Shown piece after piece: positions 44,571-51,047 of a stretch of 64,000 bases of DNA. The stretch covers positions 7,192,001 through 7,256,000 of the forward strand of contig NZ_CP028158.1 in assembly GCF_003030345.1 (NCBI RefSeq), in the 5' to 3' direction. The position numbers were made by a program, and so were the translations under genes. This DNA comes from Plantactinospora sp. BC1. Its GTDB lineage: Bacteria; Actinomycetota; Actinomycetes; Mycobacteriales; Micromonosporaceae. The notes under the pieces were generated by a model. It was given only the letters and a program-made list of their open reading frames with translations. It did not search any database and was not told where the DNA came from. The number at the start of each line of letters is the position of its first letter. The stretch's first letter is position 1.

Positions 44571-44893
44571 CCGGGGCGGCGCAGCGGGCGGCTGCGCACC
44601 CCGGGCGGCCGTGTGGCGGCGGCCGGCCGGTCGGGTGGAACCGGTTCGCCCGACCGGACAGGCACTCTCCGATGATCCGCTGAGGCGGTGCGTCGTGATC
44701 CGGGCGGCATCATCCCCATACATCAGATGACGTACGGTTAGCCCGTAGTCACGAGATGCTCACTCCGGGCGGGACCGGGCTGCCGCGCCCCGCCCCTCCC
44801 CCTAGCGTGACAGGTCCTTTGTGCACCCGGTCCCGGACCGGCGCGAAGGTCGCACCGTGCACTGCTTGGAGCTGCGCCAAGTTGGGGGAACGA

Positions 44894-47617
44894 ATGCCAT
44901 CTTCCGCACGACCGTCACCGGTCAACCGCCTACTACGGACAGGAGTCGCGGTCGCGCTGGTCGCGGCGCTGGCCGCACCGATCTCCGGTACGGCACCCGC
45001 CGCCGCCGTGGTGCTGCCGACCGGCTTCCAGGAACAGGTCGTCTTCACCGGCCTGAACCAGCCGACCAATATCGAGTTCGCCCCGGACGGGCGGGTCTTC
45101 GTCGCCGAGAAGGGCGGCCGGATCAAGGTGTACGACGACCTCGCCGACACCACCGCCACCGTCTTCGCCGACCTGTCGGCGAACGTGCACAACCAACACG
45201 ACCGGGGACTGCTCGGGCTGGCCCTGCACCCGGACTTCCCGACCCAGCCGTACGTCTACGTGCTCTACGCCTACGACGCCCCGCCGGGGCAGACCGCGCC
45301 GTACTGGAACGACAACTGCGCCTCGGTCGGCGGTACCAACGGCGGGCGGTGCATCGTCACCGGCCGGCTCTCCCGGCTGACCGCCGCCGGCAACACGATG
45401 ACCGGCACCGAGCAGGTCTTCATCGACGACTGGTGCCAGCAGTACGCCAGCCACGCCACCGGTGACCTGCGGTTCGGTGCCGACGGGATGCTCTACGCCA
45501 CCGCCGGGGACGGAGCCAGCTACGACCTGGTCGACTACGGCCAGCTCGGCACCCCGCCGAACCCCTGCGCCGACCCGCCCGGCGGCACGATGTCCCCGCC
45601 GACCGCCGAGGGCGGCGCGCTGCGCTCCCAGGACTCCCGGACCACCGCCGACCCGACCAGCCTGGACGGTACGGTGCTGCGGCTCGACCCGCTGACCGGC
45701 GCCGCCGCCCCCGGCAACCCGTCGGCGGCCAGCCCCGACCCGAACACCCGACGGATCGTCGCGCAGGGGCTGCGCAACCCGTTCCGGTTCACCATCCGGC
45801 CCGGCACCAACGAGGTCTGGGCCGGTGACGTCGGCTGGACCCGGTGGGAGGAGGTCAACCGGGTGGTCGACCCGACCGCCTCGGTCACCAACTTCGGCTG
45901 GCCGTGCTTCGAGGGCGCCGGCCGGCAGAGCGGCTACGACAGCGCCAACCTCGACATGTGCGAGAGCCTCTACAGCGGTGCCGGGCAGACGGCGCCGTTC
46001 TACACGTACGACCACGCGGCCCGGGTGGTGGCCGGGGAGGCGTGTCCGACCGGCAGCTCGTCGGTCTCGGGTGCCGCCTTCTATCCGGCGGCCGGCGGCA
46101 GCTATCCGGCCGAGTACGCGGGCGCGCTCTTCTTCTCCGACTACTCCCGGGACTGCATCTGGGCGATGTTGCCCGCCGCACCCGGTGGGCTGCCGGTGGC
46201 GAGCAGCCGGCGTACCTTCGGCAGCGCCGCCGCCAATCCCGTCGACCTGGCCATGGGGCCGGGCGGTGACCTCTACTACGTCGACCACGCCGGTTCGGTA
46301 CGCCGGATCCGCTACTTCCCCGGCAACCAGCCGCCGGTCGCCTCCATCGCCGCCTCCCCCACCTCCGGGACGGCGCCGCTGACGGTGAACTTCGACGGCA
46401 CCGGCTCCTCCGACGCGGACCCGGCCGACGCCGGCCGGCTGCGCTACGAGTGGGATTTCACCAACGACGGCACCGTCGACGCCACCACGGCGACGGCGAC
46501 GTACACCTATCCGGCCGGCGGCCCGTACACCGCCCGGCTGACCGTCTACGACACGCTGAACGCCTCCGGCACCCAGACGGTGCCGATCCAGACCGGCAAC
46601 AGCATGCCGACCGCGGTGATCGACAGTCCGGGCGGCGACTTCACCTGGGCGGTCAACGACACGATCAGCTTCACCGGGCACGCGACCGACCCGGACCAGG
46701 GCACCCTGCCGGCCAGCGCGCTGCACTGGCGGATGCTGCTGCACCACTGCTACACGCTGGACAACTGCCACATCCACACGTTGCAGGACTTCACCGGCGC
46801 CAGCGGCAGCATGTTCGGGCCGGACCACGAGTATCCGTCCTATCTGGAGCTGGTGCTCACCGCCACGGACAGCGGCGGGCTGTCGCACAGCACCAGCGTG
46901 CGGCTCGACCCGAAGACCGTCGACCTGACCTTCAACTCCAGCCCGCCGGGTCTGCAACTGGTCTTCGGGGCGACGGCCCAGGCGGCGCCCTTCACCCGTA
47001 CCGTCATCCAGGGGTCCAGCAACACCGTCAGCGCGGTCACCCCGCAGACCCTCGGCGGCGTGCCGTACGTCTTCGGTTCCTGGTCCGACGGCGGGGCGCA
47101 GACCCACGTGATCACCGCCCCGACGACCCCGACCAGCTACACCGCCACCTACAACCCGCAGTCCGGCAGCACCCGGCTGCCGCAGTCGGCCTGGACCGTG
47201 GCCGGGGCGGACAGCCAGGAGACGCTCCTGGTCAACGGCCGGGCCAACAACGTCCGGGACGGCAGCAGCTCGTCGATCTGGCACACCCAGCGGCTGCTCT
47301 CCAACCCGGCGCACCCGCACTGGATCGACCTCGACCTGGGCAGCGCCCGGACGGTCAACCGGCTGTACTACCTGCCCCGGCAGGGCTCGAACACCGGCGG
47401 CCGGATCACCGGCTACGAGGTGTACGTCTCGAACAGCCGGAGCAGTTGGGGCACCCCGGTGGCCACCGGCACCTTCCCGAACAGCGCGGCGGAACAGACG
47501 GTGACGATCCCGCCGACCAGCGGCCGGTACCTCCGGCTCCGCGCCCTCGGTGAGGTCAGCGGCAACCGGTGGACCTCGGTGGCCGAACTCAACGTCGGTG
47601 TGGTGCCGACCGGCTGA
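44894..47617 (+). CDS. Secreted PQQ-type sugar dehydrogenase with PKD and F5/8-type C domains
   Basis: A 907-residue exported protein. A signal peptide covers residues 1-37 (VNRLLRTGVAVALVAALAAP...APAAA). A six-bladed beta-propeller of the glucose/sorbosone dehydrogenase family spans about residues 45-470 (PTNIEFAPDGRVFVAEKGGRIKVYDD, DRGLLGLALHPDFP, RIVAQGLRNPFRF, GDVGWTRWEEVN). A PKD domain follows (SPTSGTAPLTVNFDGTGSSDAD), then a short beta-region and a C-terminal discoidin (F5/8 type C) sugar-binding domain. It probably oxidises or binds sugars at the cell surface or outside; a PQQ source was not seen. ATG 44894 has GGGGGAA before it. Confidence 0.88.
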   Translation: MPSSARPSPVNRLLRTGVAVALVAALAAPISGTAPAAAVVLPTGFQEQVVFTGLNQPTNIEFAPDGRVFVAEKGGRIKVYDDLADTTATVFADLSANVHNQHDRGLLGLALHPDFPTQPYVYVLYAYDAPPGQTAPYWNDNCASVGGTNGGRCIVTGRLSRLTAAGNTMTGTEQVFIDDWCQQYASHATGDLRFGADGMLYATAGDGASYDLVDYGQLGTPPNPCADPPGGTMSPPTAEGGALRSQDSRTTADPTSLDGTVLRLDPLTGAAAPGNPSAASPDPNTRRIVAQGLRNPFRFTIRPGTNEVWAGDVGWTRWEEVNRVVDPTASVTNFGWPCFEGAGRQSGYDSANLDMCESLYSGAGQTAPFYTYDHAARVVAGEACPTGSSSVSGAAFYPAAGGSYPAEYAGALFFSDYSRDCIWAMLPAAPGGLPVASSRRTFGSAAANPVDLAMGPGGDLYYVDHAGSVRRIRYFPGNQPPVASIAASPTSGTAPLTVNFDGTGSSDADPADAGRLRYEWDFTNDGTVDATTATATYTYPAGGPYTARLTVYDTLNASGTQTVPIQTGNSMPTAVIDSPGGDFTWAVNDTISFTGHATDPDQGTLPASALHWRMLLHHCYTLDNCHIHTLQDFTGASGSMFGPDHEYPSYLELVLTATDSGGLSHSTSVRLDPKTVDLTFNSSPPGLQLVFGATAQAAPFTRTVIQGSSNTVSAVTPQTLGGVPYVFGSWSDGGAQTHVITAPTTPTSYTATYNPQSGSTRLPQSAWTVAGADSQETLLVNGRANNVRDGSSSSIWHTQRLLSNPAHPHWIDLDLGSARTVNRLYYLPRQGSNTGGRITGYEVYVSNSRSSWGTPVATGTFPNSAAEQTVTIPPTSGRYLRLRALGEVSGNRWTSVAELNVGVVPTG

Positions 47618-47687: not shown

Positions 47688-47748
47688 GCCCGGCACCAGC
47701 CCGCCGACCGGGGCGCGGCGGACCTCCCACCCGGCGCACCGGCCCTGC

Positions 47749-47754
47749 TACCGT
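47749..47754 (+). promoter_or_regulatory. Putative -10 hexamer TACCGT for the trpS leader transcript
   Basis: TACCGT is followed by six bases and then GTG 47761, in frame with the ATG at 47767. It would start transcription at or next to the leader peptide. The GGAGGT between them can also serve as ribosome site for the ATG. Confidence 0.45.
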
Positions 47755-47766
47755 GGAGGTGTGCGG

Positions 47767-47796
47767 ATGACCTCGAACGGTTGGTGGCTGCCCTGA
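47767..47796 (+). CDS. Tryptophan leader peptide of trpS (MTSNGWWLP)
   Basis: A 9-codon ORF with two adjacent Trp codons (TGG 47782-47784 and 47785-47787) and a TGA at 47794-47796. GGAGG (47755-47759) is spaced 7 bases before ATG 47767; an in-frame GTG at 47761 would add MR. Two Trp in such a short peptide, directly before competing hairpins and trpS, is the hallmark of ribosome-mediated attenuation. The predicted function is to sense charged tRNA-Trp. Confidence 0.8.
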   Translation: MTSNGWWLP

Positions 47797-47859
47797 CGGG
47801 CGGCCCGCGCATCCGCGTACCCGAACAACAGCCAGCGGCCGCCCTCCGGGCGGCCGTTT
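47788..47859 (+). promoter_or_regulatory. trpS transcription attenuator
   Basis: Three alternative hairpins. Pause hairpin: CTGCCC (47788-47793) with GGGCGG (47798-47803). Antiterminator: GGGCGGCC (47798-47805) with GGCCGCCC (47837-47844), perfect. Terminator: CGGCCGCCC (47836-47844) with GGGCGGCCG (47848-47856), then TTT. Segments 47798-47805 and 47848-47855 are identical, so they compete for the same partner. A ribosome stalled at the Trp codons leaves 47798-47805 free to form the antiterminator; one at the stop codon covers it, and the terminator forms. Comparable control of trpS (trpRS1) is known in Streptomyces coelicolor. Confidence 0.8.
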
Positions 47860-47909
47860 CGCATGTGCTCACCCGGGGGCGACCGCCACACCGGTAAGGA
47901 GCACCTGTC

Positions 47910-48941
47910 ATGGCCCCGAGCACCGCACTTCCGGCAGCCACCGCACTCGCCCCGAACGCACCGGCACTGCGCCGGATCACCGGCCTCAAACCAACCGGCC
48001 ACCTGCACCTGGGCAACCTGGTCGGTGCGATCCGGCCGATCGTCGCCGGCCAGTACCGGGCCGAGACGATCGTCTTCCTCGCCGACCTGCACGCGCTCAC
48101 CGTGACCCACCAACCGGCGCAGATCCGGGCGCTGACCCTGGAGCAGGCCACCGTACTGCTCGCCGCCGGCCTCGACCCGGACCGGGCGCTGCTCTACGTG
48201 CAGTCACAGGTGCCGCAGCACACCGAACTGCACTACCTGCTGGAGTGTGCCACCGGCTACGGCGAGGCGCACCGGATGATCCAGTTCCGGGAGAAGTCGG
48301 CGCGGCACGGGCAGGTCCGGCTGAGCCTGCTCAGCTATCCCGTGCTGATGGCCGCCGACATTCTGCTGCACGACGTGCAGGAGGTGCCGGTCGGCGACGA
48401 CCAGAGCCAGCATCTCGAACTCACCCGCGCCGTGGCGACCCGGTTCAACACCCGGTACGGCGACACCTTCACCATCCCCCGGGCGGTCCATCCGACGGTG
48501 TCGGCCCGGCTGATGGACCTGGCCGACCCGACCGCCAAGATGGGCAAGACCAGCAGCAGCGAGGCCGGCACCGTCTTCCTGCTCGATCCGCCCGAGGTGA
48601 TCCGCCGCAAGGTGCTGCGCGCCGTCACCGACCCGGGCCGGACCGTCGAGTACGACCCGCAGCGCCGGCCCGGCGTGGCGAACCTGCTGGAGATCCTGGC
48701 GACCTGCCTGGGCGGCTCCCCCGCCGACCTGGCCGCCGGGTACGGCTCGTACGCCCAGTTGAAGAACGCGGTCGCCGAGGCGGTCGAGGCGATGCTCCGG
48801 CCGATCCGACTCCGCTACACGGAACTCGCCCGCGATCCGGGCTATGTCCGGCGGGTACTCGCCGACGGCGCCGACCGGGCCCGCGACAACGCCACCGACA
48901 CCGTCCACCGGGCGAAGCGCGCGCTGGGGCTGCTGCCCTGA
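47910..48941 (+). CDS. trpS: Tryptophan--tRNA ligase under attenuation control
   Basis: Class I aminoacyl-tRNA synthetase of 343 residues. The HIGH-type motif is HLHLGN near residues 31-36, preceded by ITGLKPTG. The KMSKS equivalent reads KMGKTSSS near residue 211. VPVGDDQSQHLELTR and FNTRYGDTF are typical TrpRS segments. The His of ADLHALT is retained; its replacement in Bacillus TrpRS is linked to indolmycin resistance, so resistance is not predicted from this site. ATG 47910 follows AAGGAG with an 8-base spacer. The gene is tightly convergent with the GNAT gene (3 bases between stops). It may be a second, inducible TrpRS, but the rest of the genome is not visible. Confidence 0.95.
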   Translation: MAPSTALPAATALAPNAPALRRITGLKPTGHLHLGNLVGAIRPIVAGQYRAETIVFLADLHALTVTHQPAQIRALTLEQATVLLAAGLDPDRALLYVQSQVPQHTELHYLLECATGYGEAHRMIQFREKSARHGQVRLSLLSYPVLMAADILLHDVQEVPVGDDQSQHLELTRAVATRFNTRYGDTFTIPRAVHPTVSARLMDLADPTAKMGKTSSSEAGTVFLLDPPEVIRRKVLRAVTDPGRTVEYDPQRRPGVANLLEILATCLGGSPADLAAGYGSYAQLKNAVAEAVEAMLRPIRLRYTELARDPGYVRRVLADGADRARDNATDTVHRAKRALGLLP

Positions 48942-48944
48942 GGG

Positions 48945-49487
48945 CTACCCCAGCGAGACTGTGGCCTCGGCCCGTCCGGGCAGCCGCTCTCTCCCCGAGG
49001 TGGCCGGCTGCCGCTTCTCGAAGCAGACGCTGTAGGGGTTGCTGGTGTATTCGCCGTAGGCGGGGATCTCCACGTAGCCGGAGGAGAGGTAGAGCTGGAT
49101 GGCGCCGGGGAGGTAGCTGCCGGTCTCCAGCCGCAGTACGGTCTGCCCGGCCCGCAGGGCCAGTTCCTCGAGCGCGCCGAGCATCTGCCGGGCGAGGCCC
49201 TGACCCCGGTGGGCCGGCCGGACGTACATCCGCTTGACCTCGGCGGTGTCCCGGTCCAGCGTCTGGATCGCCCCGCAGGCCACCGCCCGGCCGGCGATCA
49301 CGCCCACCAGGTAGCGGGCGTCGTCGTGCGGCATGAACACCTGCCCGTCCAGACCGCCGTCGGCTTCCCGAAGCTCACGCTGCTGGGCCACCACCAGGGC
49401 GGCCAGCTCGGGATCCGACGACGAACGCGACTCGATCAGCACACCGCCGACGGTAACCACCAGGCGTTTCGTCGAGGTTTCGGCCAA
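48945..49487 (-). CDS. GNAT family N-acetyltransferase
   Basis: A 180-residue acetyltransferase. Acetyl-CoA-binding motif A is VKRMYVRPAHRGQGLARQMLGALEELA near residues 85-110, with the Q/RxxGxG/A pattern RGQGLA. Motif B follows as LRLETGSYLPGAIQLYLSSGYVEIPAYGEY. Substrate unknown; the type resembles small-molecule or protein N-acetyltransferases. The start used, TTG 49485-49487, is uncertain because no ribosome site is visible; later GTG codons in the first 20 residues are alternatives. A 24-bp repeat array lies between this gene and the obgE stop. Confidence 0.8.
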   Translation of the reverse strand: MAETSTKRLVVTVGGVLIESRSSSDPELAALVVAQQRELREADGGLDGQVFMPHDDARYLVGVIAGRAVACGAIQTLDRDTAEVKRMYVRPAHRGQGLARQMLGALEELALRAGQTVLRLETGSYLPGAIQLYLSSGYVEIPAYGEYTSNPYSVCFEKRQPATSGRERLPGRAEATVSLG

Positions 49488-49506: not shown

Positions 49507-49578
49507 GCAGCGAACTAATCCGCCTACGACGCAGCTAACTAGTCCACGTCCGGCACAGCGAACTAGTCCGCGTCCGGC
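49507..49578. repeat. 24-bp tandem repeat, 3 copies, spanning the obgE stop codon
   Basis: Units at 49507-49530, 49531-49554 and 49555-49578, sharing (G/A)CAGC(G/T)AACTA(A/G)TCC. Because 24 is a multiple of three, each copy repeats an in-frame TAG: the true obgE stop (49563-49565) is followed by TAG codons in the same frame from the other two copies. Confidence 0.88.
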
Positions 49579-51047
49579 GCCGTGCCGCTGTCGGGCCGCT
49601 GCACGGTGCCGTCCGGGGTCGGGTCCGGGGTCGCCTCCTCCGGCGGCCGCTGCCGACGGGCCTTGCGGGCGGCGAGCCGCTCGGCCGCGGTCGGCCGGGT
49701 AACCTTCTCGGCCAGCCGGCTGTCGGTGCCCCGGGCACTCGGCACGTACTCGGCACCGGCGTAGAGCGTCGGCTGCCAGTCGAACTCCCGCTCCCCGATC
49801 CGGACCAGGCTGCCCGGCTCCGCACCCGCCTTGGCGAGCTGCTCCTCGACACCGAGCCGGGCCAGCCGGTCGGCCAGGTAGCCGACCGCCTCCTCGTTGT
49901 CGAAGTTGGTCTGCTTGACCCAGCGCTCCGGCCGCTGCCCGCGTACCACGTACGCGCCGTCCGGCGCCGTCTCGATCGTGAAGCCGGCGTCGTCGACCGC
50001 GACCGGCCGGATCACGATCCGGGTCGGCTCCAGGTCGGGCGCCACCGCCCGGGACTGCTCGACCAGCTCCGCCAGCGCGAAGGTCAGCTCGCGCAGCCCC
50101 TCCCGGGTCACCGCCGAGACCTCGAATACCCGCAGGCCACGGGCCTCGATGTCGGGGCGGACGATCTCGGCGAGATCCCGCCCGTCCGGTACGTCGATCT
50201 TGTTGAGTACGACCAGCCGGGGCCGGTCGGCCAACCCGCCGTACTCGGAGAGCTCCGCCTCGATGGCGTCGATGTCGGCCAGCGGATCGCGCCCCGGCTC
50301 GGGGTTGGCCGCGTCCACCACGTGCACCAGCACCGCGCAGCGCTCGATGTGCCGGAGGAACTCCAGCCCGAGCCCCTTGCCGGTGGCGGCACCGGGGATC
50401 AGGCCCGGCACGTCGGCGACGGTGAAGGTGTGCTCGTCGACCCGGACCACGCCGAGGTTCGGCACCAGCGTGGTGAACGGGTAGTCGGCGATCTTCGGCT
50501 TGGCGGCCGAGAGGACCGAGATCAGCGAGGACTTGCCGGCCGACGGGAAACCCACCAGGCCGACGTCGGCCACGCTCTTGAGTTCGAGTACGACGTCGAG
50601 CCGGTCCCCCGGCTCGCCCAGCTCGGCGAAGCCGGGCGCCTTGCGCCGGGCGTTGGCCAGCGAGGCGTTGCCCCGACCGCCCCGACCGCCCCGGGCCACC
50701 TCGAAGGTGGTGCCGGCGCCGACCAGGTCGGCCAGCACCGTGCCGTCCATGGCGTGCACGACCGTGCCGTCCGGGACCTTGAGCACCAGGTCGTGCCCGT
50801 TGGCACCGTCCCGGTTGGAGCCGGCGCCGCCCTTGCCGTTCTCGGCCTTGACGTGCGGCCGGAAGTGGAAGTCGAGCAGGGTGTGCACCTGGGGGTCGAC
50901 CACCAGGGACACGCTGCCGCCGTGTCCGCCGTTGCCGCCGTCCGGCCCGCCGAACGGCTTGAACTTCTCCCGGTGGATCGAGACGCAACCGTGCCCGCCG
51001 TCACCGGCCTGCAGGTGCAGTACGACCCGGTCAACGAACGTCGTCAC
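49563..51047 (-). CDS. obgE: GTPase ObgE (CgtA)
   Basis: Essential GTPase of late 50S assembly and stress control; 494 residues. The N-terminal Obg domain carries glycine-rich helices ([19 protein letters not shown]), the GTPase core has [18 protein letters not shown] and NKID near residues 165-290, and the C-terminal OCT domain ([19 protein letters not shown]) is present, as in actinobacterial Obg, followed by a charged tail. The start GTG 51045-51047 has AAGGA spaced 7 bases. It sits downstream of rpmA, its usual partner, with a hairpin in between. Confidence 0.97.

Follow-up and report, generated by a model that had tools for sequence, protein, structure and literature searches.

Transcription of trpS, an auxiliary tryptophanyl-tRNA synthetase (TrpRS) gene of Plantactinospora sp. 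BC1, is very probably controlled by a ribosome-mediated attenuator in front of the gene, which would induce the enzyme when charged tRNA-Trp is scarce. The window (the whole stretch of DNA that was analysed, 64,000 nt) and related genomes were examined at the sequence level, where the anatomy of the leader, its conservation, the promoter spacing and the covariation of a helix at the leader start were observed. The original prediction had proposed a complete Trp attenuator of a kind known in Streptomyces, and this reading was supported by anatomy and conservation. Absent from that prediction were the auxiliary identity of the gene, the optional second Trp codon, the covarying 5' helix and the leaders at anthranilate-synthase-type genes.

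Leader anatomy and proposed mechanism

The genome (one contig, 8.33 Mb) contains two TrpRS matches, one of which is trpS at 47910-48941; the other (G000:C1:2890972) is 47% identical to the trpS product, which is itself 89% identical to the auxiliary TrpRS of Plantactinospora mayteni. A midpoint-rooted TrpRS tree of 48 rows (16 of 73 auxiliary copies from the family, 12 housekeeping copies and 20 copies from named loci) placed leader-bearing and housekeeping copies on opposite sides of the root (100/99 for each side), the housekeeping side also containing rows from Actinotalea, Clostridia and Thermoleophilia. Judged by its sequence, trpS is the second, auxiliary TrpRS gene of the genome and not the housekeeping copy. 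A large gene 5' of trpS (44756-47617, + strand) has a weak likeness to PQQ-dependent glucose/sorbosone dehydrogenases (56.9 bits, far under the cut-off). On the other side, a gene convergent with trpS (48945-49487, - strand) has a weak GNAT acetyltransferase likeness, below cut-offs, and is followed by obgE (49563-51047, - strand). The following features were assigned.

47746..47754, + strand: extended -10 promoter element TGC-TACCGT, 6 nt before the leader GTG (relatives below)
47761..47796, + strand: leader peptide ORF VRMTSNGWWLP*, predicted leaderless with the RNA 5' end at the GTG (sequence, conservation, promoter spacing)
47782..47787, + strand: tandem Trp codons TGG TGG, the first being the fourth codon before the stop
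47761..47769, + strand: start helix 5' strand GUGCGGAUG (covariation)
47810..47818, + strand: start helix 3' strand CAUCCGCGU (covariation)
47786..47793, + strand: pause/protector hairpin 5' strand GGCUGCCC, partner 47798-47805 (folding, alignment)
47798..47805, + strand: segment 2, antiterminator 5' strand GGGCGGCC (folding, alignment)
47837..47844, + strand: segment 3 GGCCGCCC, common to antiterminator and terminator (folding, alignment)
47848..47855, + strand: segment 4 GGGCGGCC, terminator 3' strand (folding, alignment)
47834..47859, + strand: intrinsic-terminator-like hairpin of 11 pairs (47834-47858), then only UUU (stem search, folding; missed by the standard scan)
47865..47870, + strand: GUGCUC, possible partner of the trpS Shine-Dalgarno (SD) sequence, weakly supported (folding, shuffled controls)
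47896..47904, + strand: trpS SD AAGGAG plus CAC, possible partner of 47865-47870 (sequence)
47910..48941, + strand: trpS, auxiliary TrpRS, 343 aa (TIGR00233, 298 bits against a cut-off of 177; TrpRS tree)

The leader ORF, the hairpin across its stop, the 8-bp antiterminator and the 11-pair terminator with its UUU occupy 100 nt (47761-47860). A letter-by-letter check placed the leader start GTG at 47761, an inner ATG at 47767 and the TGA at 47794-47796, and confirmed the predicted short ORF with tandem Trp codons and the identical segments 47798-47805 and 47848-47855 competing for 47837-47844. The leader stop had been described as one base before segment 2, and a single base (C 47797) does separate it from GGGCGGCC at 47798-47805; the pause hairpin overlapping the end of the ORF (47786-47805) and the perfect 8-bp antiterminator (47798-47805/47837-47844) were also seen as described. 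The proposed terminator with T's held for its 11-pair stem, but only TTT (47857-47859) follows it, and standard scans of the leader region matched neither a sigma-70 promoter nor a U-rich terminator. Placement of the device directly before trpS was not upheld, the gap to the trpS ATG (47910) being about 50 nt.

As in a classical attenuator, a leader ORF with Trp codons (predicted translation) is joined to mutually exclusive hairpins that share a strand, and the spacing is such that a ribosome on the stop would cover the antiterminator strand and one on the Trp codons would not (footprint assumed). In the proposed mechanism, transcription would start at or next to GTG 47761 and the leader peptide would be read from the leaderless 5' end. 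Given ample Trp-tRNA, the ribosome would get to the TGA (47794) and cover segment 2, upon which segments 3 and 4 would pair, the terminator would form and trpS would be left untranscribed. When Trp-tRNA is scarce, the ribosome would stall on the first or second TGG, and the free segment 2 would pair with segment 3 as it emerges, allowing RNA polymerase to continue into trpS. The start helix (47761-47769/47810-47818) probably re-forms behind or after the ribosome, helping to hide segment 2. We infer termination, stalling and a response to tryptophan or to TrpRS inhibitors.

Conservation and the predicted leaderless start

The family was sampled with 150 Micromonosporaceae genomes, all of which contained a TrpRS match. 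Auxiliary-type TrpRS genes were present at at least 73 places scoring above 350 bits, one each in 73 genomes, in a list that is incomplete (the RNA model added, for example, L174). The 73 upstream regions were fetched and 72 were readable, L070 being dropped at a contig end. The original prediction held that WW codons and hairpins should recur in relatives; a Trp-codon leader was found in 72/72 regions (56 WW, 16 single Trp) and a terminator stem with the same core in 72/72. Leader length was 11-14 codons in 71/72; the leader stop lay beside GGCGG in 71 regions (exception L015), the distance from its first base to the GGCGG being 4-7 nt in 71/72. The first Trp codon was the fourth-last before the stop in 70/72 leaders regardless of leader length (exceptions L015 and L021), and the codon after it was Trp, Arg or, once, Gln. 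With this position constant and the next codon variable, selection seems to maintain a single Trp codon at a single place; by the same sequence comparison, the second Trp codon is optional and the leader body free. L015 (G015) retains the WW, the start and the terminator but not the usual stop, and its ORF extends to 21 codons; this leader is possibly a broken attenuator.

For the comparison across Micromonosporaceae, 18 regions upstream of housekeeping trpS genes served as a control set. None of the 18 contained a WW ORF, and covariance model R1 gave a lone match there (12.8 bits, E 0.25), so the comparison came out in favour of the attenuator. R1 matched at E <= 0.1 in 128/150 family genomes, many of these matches being weak and unchecked.

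Such genomes are rich in G+C-rich inverted repeats and small ORFs, and Trp was present among the last six residues of 13/100 background small ORFs (drawn from control regions and from sequence 5' of the leaders), so that a terminator could have come to lie in a GC-rich intergenic region beside an unrelated small ORF. The probability of this chance origin is negligible. WW was found in 0/100 of the background ORFs, and a small ORF followed by an 8-mer X, its reverse complement and X again occurred at one place only in the window (both strands, with or without the WW requirement) and nowhere in 30 x 128 kb (3.84 Mb) of second-order Markov sequence; conservation in 72/72 family regions, and in other actinobacterial families, already refutes it. 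The fold of the leader region itself gave z = -2.39, with 4/200 shuffles equally stable.

The original prediction had allowed that the attenuator leader may be leaderless, and this gained support from promoter spacing. A strict TANNNT hexamer was found 6, 7 or 8 nt before the leader ATG or GTG in 47, 9 and 2 of the 72 leaders, respectively (58/72 in total), and at none of the spacings of 2-5 and 9-15 nt; further upstream the rate was 16 of 7776 positions. By eye, the remaining 14 leaders mostly have an ANNNT element (ACAAT, GATAAT) at about the same place. The bases preceding the hexamer (45 leaders) were TGN, as in an extended -10, in 29, NGN in 12 and other in 4. Leader starts in the 72-leader test were chosen partly via the -10, and a repeat of the test took the stop codon as its sole anchor. 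The 50 non-redundant regions anchored in this way yielded 46 hexamers; 44 of these had an in-frame RTG at 6-8 nt on the 3' side, and none had an out-of-frame RTG at 5-9 nt. An SD-like string preceded the upstream RTG in 2/72 leaders. Given the 6-8 nt spacing from the -10 to the leader start, a leaderless window leader, with its RNA predicted to start at or next to GTG 47761, is well supported. For Streptomyces lividans, the available part of PMC8079986 reports a leaderless share of 17% among transcripts, TAnnnT as the -10 and a leaderless trpL2.

The inner ATG (47767) was tried and rejected as a general leader start: an RTG at codon 3 is present in 33/72 leaders, preceded by an SD-like string in 3/72, and the -10 favours the upstream RTG in 58/72. 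In the window, translation from the inner ATG could use the GGAGG at 47755-47759, provided that the RNA starts further upstream.

A leaderless leader ORF in an attenuator setting, as in the window, is also found in trpL/rnTrpL of Sinorhizobium meliloti, at another gene and in another lineage (PMC7298713, available part). The resemblance of a leaderless leader RNA to rnTrpL, the 5' end of which is the trpL ATG (PMC7298713, available part), speaks for the terminated RNA or the peptide also acting in trans, as rnTrpL and peTrpL do in S. meliloti, but such action is very unlikely here: the peptides vary in sequence from the third codon up to the Trp codons, their lengths also vary (11-14 codons in 71/72), and the conserved peptide end is explained by RNA pairing.

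RNA structure, covariation and a possible trpS Shine-Dalgarno stem

Element tests were based on alignment A1, composed of 51 of the 72 leaders (<90% alike). The terminator is paired in nearly all A1 rows and its outer pairs covary. The antiterminator is paired in 97.0% of cells over the 51 rows, in which no covariation was seen and the strands are nearly invariant; little variation is expected because one strand serves two partners. The pause hairpin is paired in 82.8% of A1 cells with little covariation. The start helix, formed by the leader start (RTGCGGATG) and the stretch between segments 2 and 3 (CATCCGCGY), is paired in 78.3%. Its cells changed on both sides numbered 33 vs 18.8 in shuffles (0/500 as high; slides 8 to 18), and three of five covariation measures beat every shuffle; the other two gave 5 vs 5.0 pairs with two-sided change and 20 vs 17.0 further pair types (reached by 32/500 shuffles). 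The helix strands scored -12.9 kcal/mol with their own partners vs -10.7 when swapped (0 of 10,000 permutations as good), the strand and covariation tests both being inflated by related rows. A leader's own strand beat the mean of the others in 41/51 leaders, and two distinct helix types (CGG, CGC) each favour their own partner. Unconstrained RNAalifold paired the 3' stretch of the start helix with the Trp codons instead, and on this modelling the start helix and the Trp-codon pairing may compete for the same 3' stretch.

Folding was also performed with the ribosome masked, its footprint being an assumption. With RNA extending to 47844, the antiterminator formed when the ribosome was on the first or the second TGG; with the ribosome on the stop, no antiterminator formed and the start helix was obtained instead. 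In the complete RNA, the terminator was the minimum-energy fold at each ribosome position tried, and antitermination must therefore be kinetic, chosen during transcription. Known attenuators also decide during transcription.

Ribosome-free complete RNA folded into the start helix and the terminator in the window, and into the terminator in 51/51 leaders. When the RNA ended at segment 3, this segment was predicted in the window to pair with the part of the leader that contains the Trp codons; across the 51 leaders its partner was between segments 2 and 3 in 20 and segment 2 in 1, and it was free in 3. In the other 27/51 it paired with the leader upstream of segment 2. In view of these pairings, ribosome-free termination was dropped as a firm prediction.

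Just three Us follow the terminator hairpin, the terminator scan was negative, and the longest T run after the hairpin is <=3 in 61/72 relatives. On these grounds the hairpin might be a poor terminator and the leader might act mainly on translation of trpS, its structures and an SD stem (47865-47870/47899-47904) hiding the start. Own strands of the SD stem beat swapped ones (permutation p 0.0025; 0 of 20,000 over 49 regions), and the stem beat shuffled controls (p < 0.05) in 5/25 genus representatives, with p 0.055 in the window. A mainly translational leader is nevertheless improbable: the hairpin has the same core in 72/72 regions and a T run of >=4 in 11/72, the SD stem is non-significant in 20/25 genera, and Vecchione and Sello 2010 use the word transcriptional in their title for the control of a related auxiliary TrpRS gene. 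In the housekeeping regions intended as a control for the stem, the SD-finding rule gave an SD in 0/18.

The possible SD stem takes the form GUGCUC/GAGCAC in the window and GGUCUCC/GGAGACC, GGCUCC/GGAGCC or GUCUCC/GGAGAC elsewhere. Between the terminator and trpS, GGCGGYC, which resembles the antiterminator strand, was present in 18/49 regions (shuffled mean 1.4, highest 6). This third GGGCGG-like copy may feed the SD stem, with support that is uneven across genera. Transcription attenuation remains the preferred account of the leader, and an elaboration of it into a three-stage device is put forward only tentatively and is rather doubtful. In such a device, the first bases of the leaderless transcript would serve both as start codon and as one strand of the covarying helix, which would close over the antiterminator. 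Loading of a ribosome on the free 5' end would then act as a gate in its own right, in addition to stalling on a single essential Trp codon in a fixed position, and the SD stem, overlapping the third GGGCGG-like copy in some genera, would add a translational stage.

Distribution and relation to known Trp leaders

Outside and alongside the family set, 29 of 80 named loci were examined. At 23/29 loci, a Trp leader follows a TANNNT spaced 6-8 nt from its start; these loci are distributed over Plantactinospora, Actinomadura, Nonomuraea, Pseudonocardia, Streptomyces, Nocardioides and one unplaced Actinomycetales (L092, L094 and L134 among them being genomes already in the family set); in two further Nocardioides loci the leader has WW and lacks the strict hexamer, and four of the 29 have no comparable leader. 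With L092, L094, L134 and L136 removed, R1 found 20 of the 25 distant loci at E < 1e-4, including 13/13 from Streptomyces. These R1 matches and the TrpRS tree point to common ancestry with the Streptomyces leaders.

Twenty further R1 matches were fetched and their downstream genes read by eye. Six are followed by an auxiliary-type trpS (L174-L177, L179, L185), eight by anthranilate-synthase-like genes (L178, L181-L184, L186, L188, L189) and two by another anthranilate-synthase type (L190, L192). By NCBIfam, L190 is anthranilate synthase component I (778 bits, cut-off 645), and the likeness of L178 and L188 to anthranilate synthases scores far below cut-offs. L188 (G000:C1:2205544-2205641; 35.7 bits, E 0.0097) is the second R1 match in the genome of the window; its leader VLARLNSWWPAIPAADLRA runs past the antiterminator-like strand before its stop, a layout shared by L189 (G036) and unlike that of the trpS leaders. 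In other Micromonosporaceae, L187, L191 and L193 (G007, G046, G004) have a leaderless-looking WWPS leader before a different trpS type (NCBIfam for L187: trpS, 226 bits, cut-off 177). At L180 (G044:C153:4495-4593), a leader VRSSAFLGWWAP and hairpins are present and neither trpS nor trpE was recognised downstream.

The gene treated by Vecchione and Sello is reportedly trpRS1 of Streptomyces coelicolor. The title of their paper names ribosome-mediated transcriptional attenuation of an auxiliary, antibiotic-resistant TrpRS gene (Vecchione and Sello 2010), and TrpRS1 is indolmycin-resistant (PMC9437257, available part). By that title, the S. coelicolor attenuator and the window share an auxiliary TrpRS gene under ribosome-mediated attenuation; the window leader differs in having two Trp codons and in coming from Micromonosporaceae. 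According to the available part of PMC8079986, S. lividans trpL2, which precedes trpS, is likewise a leaderless Trp leader; it forms two hairpins, lacks a U-rich stretch and ends in LWRAA*, similar to GWWLP* of the window, but it has a single Trp codon and a different leader body (MMTRTCTQLWRAA); S. lividans trpE also has a leaderless Trp leader of its own. A classical attenuator was predicted before another actinomycete trpS, S. avermitilis trpS2 (PMC1262725), where a complementary triple gGCC-rGCy-GGCC is reported for trp operons; in the available part of that paper the prediction covers Streptomyces only, the genome list names no Micromonosporaceae and a start helix is not mentioned. Mycobacterial leaderless polycysteine ORFs are attenuator-type as well, for another amino acid and in another lineage (Canestrari 2020, available part).

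The best-scoring Rfam family was RF00513 Trp_leader (47776-47863, model positions 1-100, E 0.0018), at 26 bits against a gathering score of 41, so the window leader is not a formal member. No Rfam family, T-box and riboswitches included, reached its gathering score in the window, and the T-box was absent also from a permissive list of 13 matches.

Like the trpRS1/trpL2 type of actinobacterial leader, the window has an auxiliary TrpRS gene and a leader that is leaderless by promoter spacing. The window attenuator is another case of the Trp attenuation already known in Streptomyces trpRS1/trpL2. A start helix, a fixed place of the Trp codon and a spread in Micromonosporaceae were not found in the part of the literature on known leaders that was covered, and they are not claimed to be unpublished. 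The literature search returned no report of a Micromonospora attenuator leader peptide; the Actinoplanes SE50/110 RNA-seq study (Wolf 2017) may contain a precedent from the family.

The finding extends the Streptomyces device to a family rich in drug producers and reveals its constraint, a single Trp codon in fourth position before the stop and a start fixed by the promoter, with the second Trp codon and the leader body free. On leaderless RNA, ribosome loading at the 5' end has to take place while the transcript is folding, and the dozens of natural variants are a good test bed for attenuation on such RNA. The Trp leader is also a simple mark for auxiliary TrpRS genes in actinomycete genomes.
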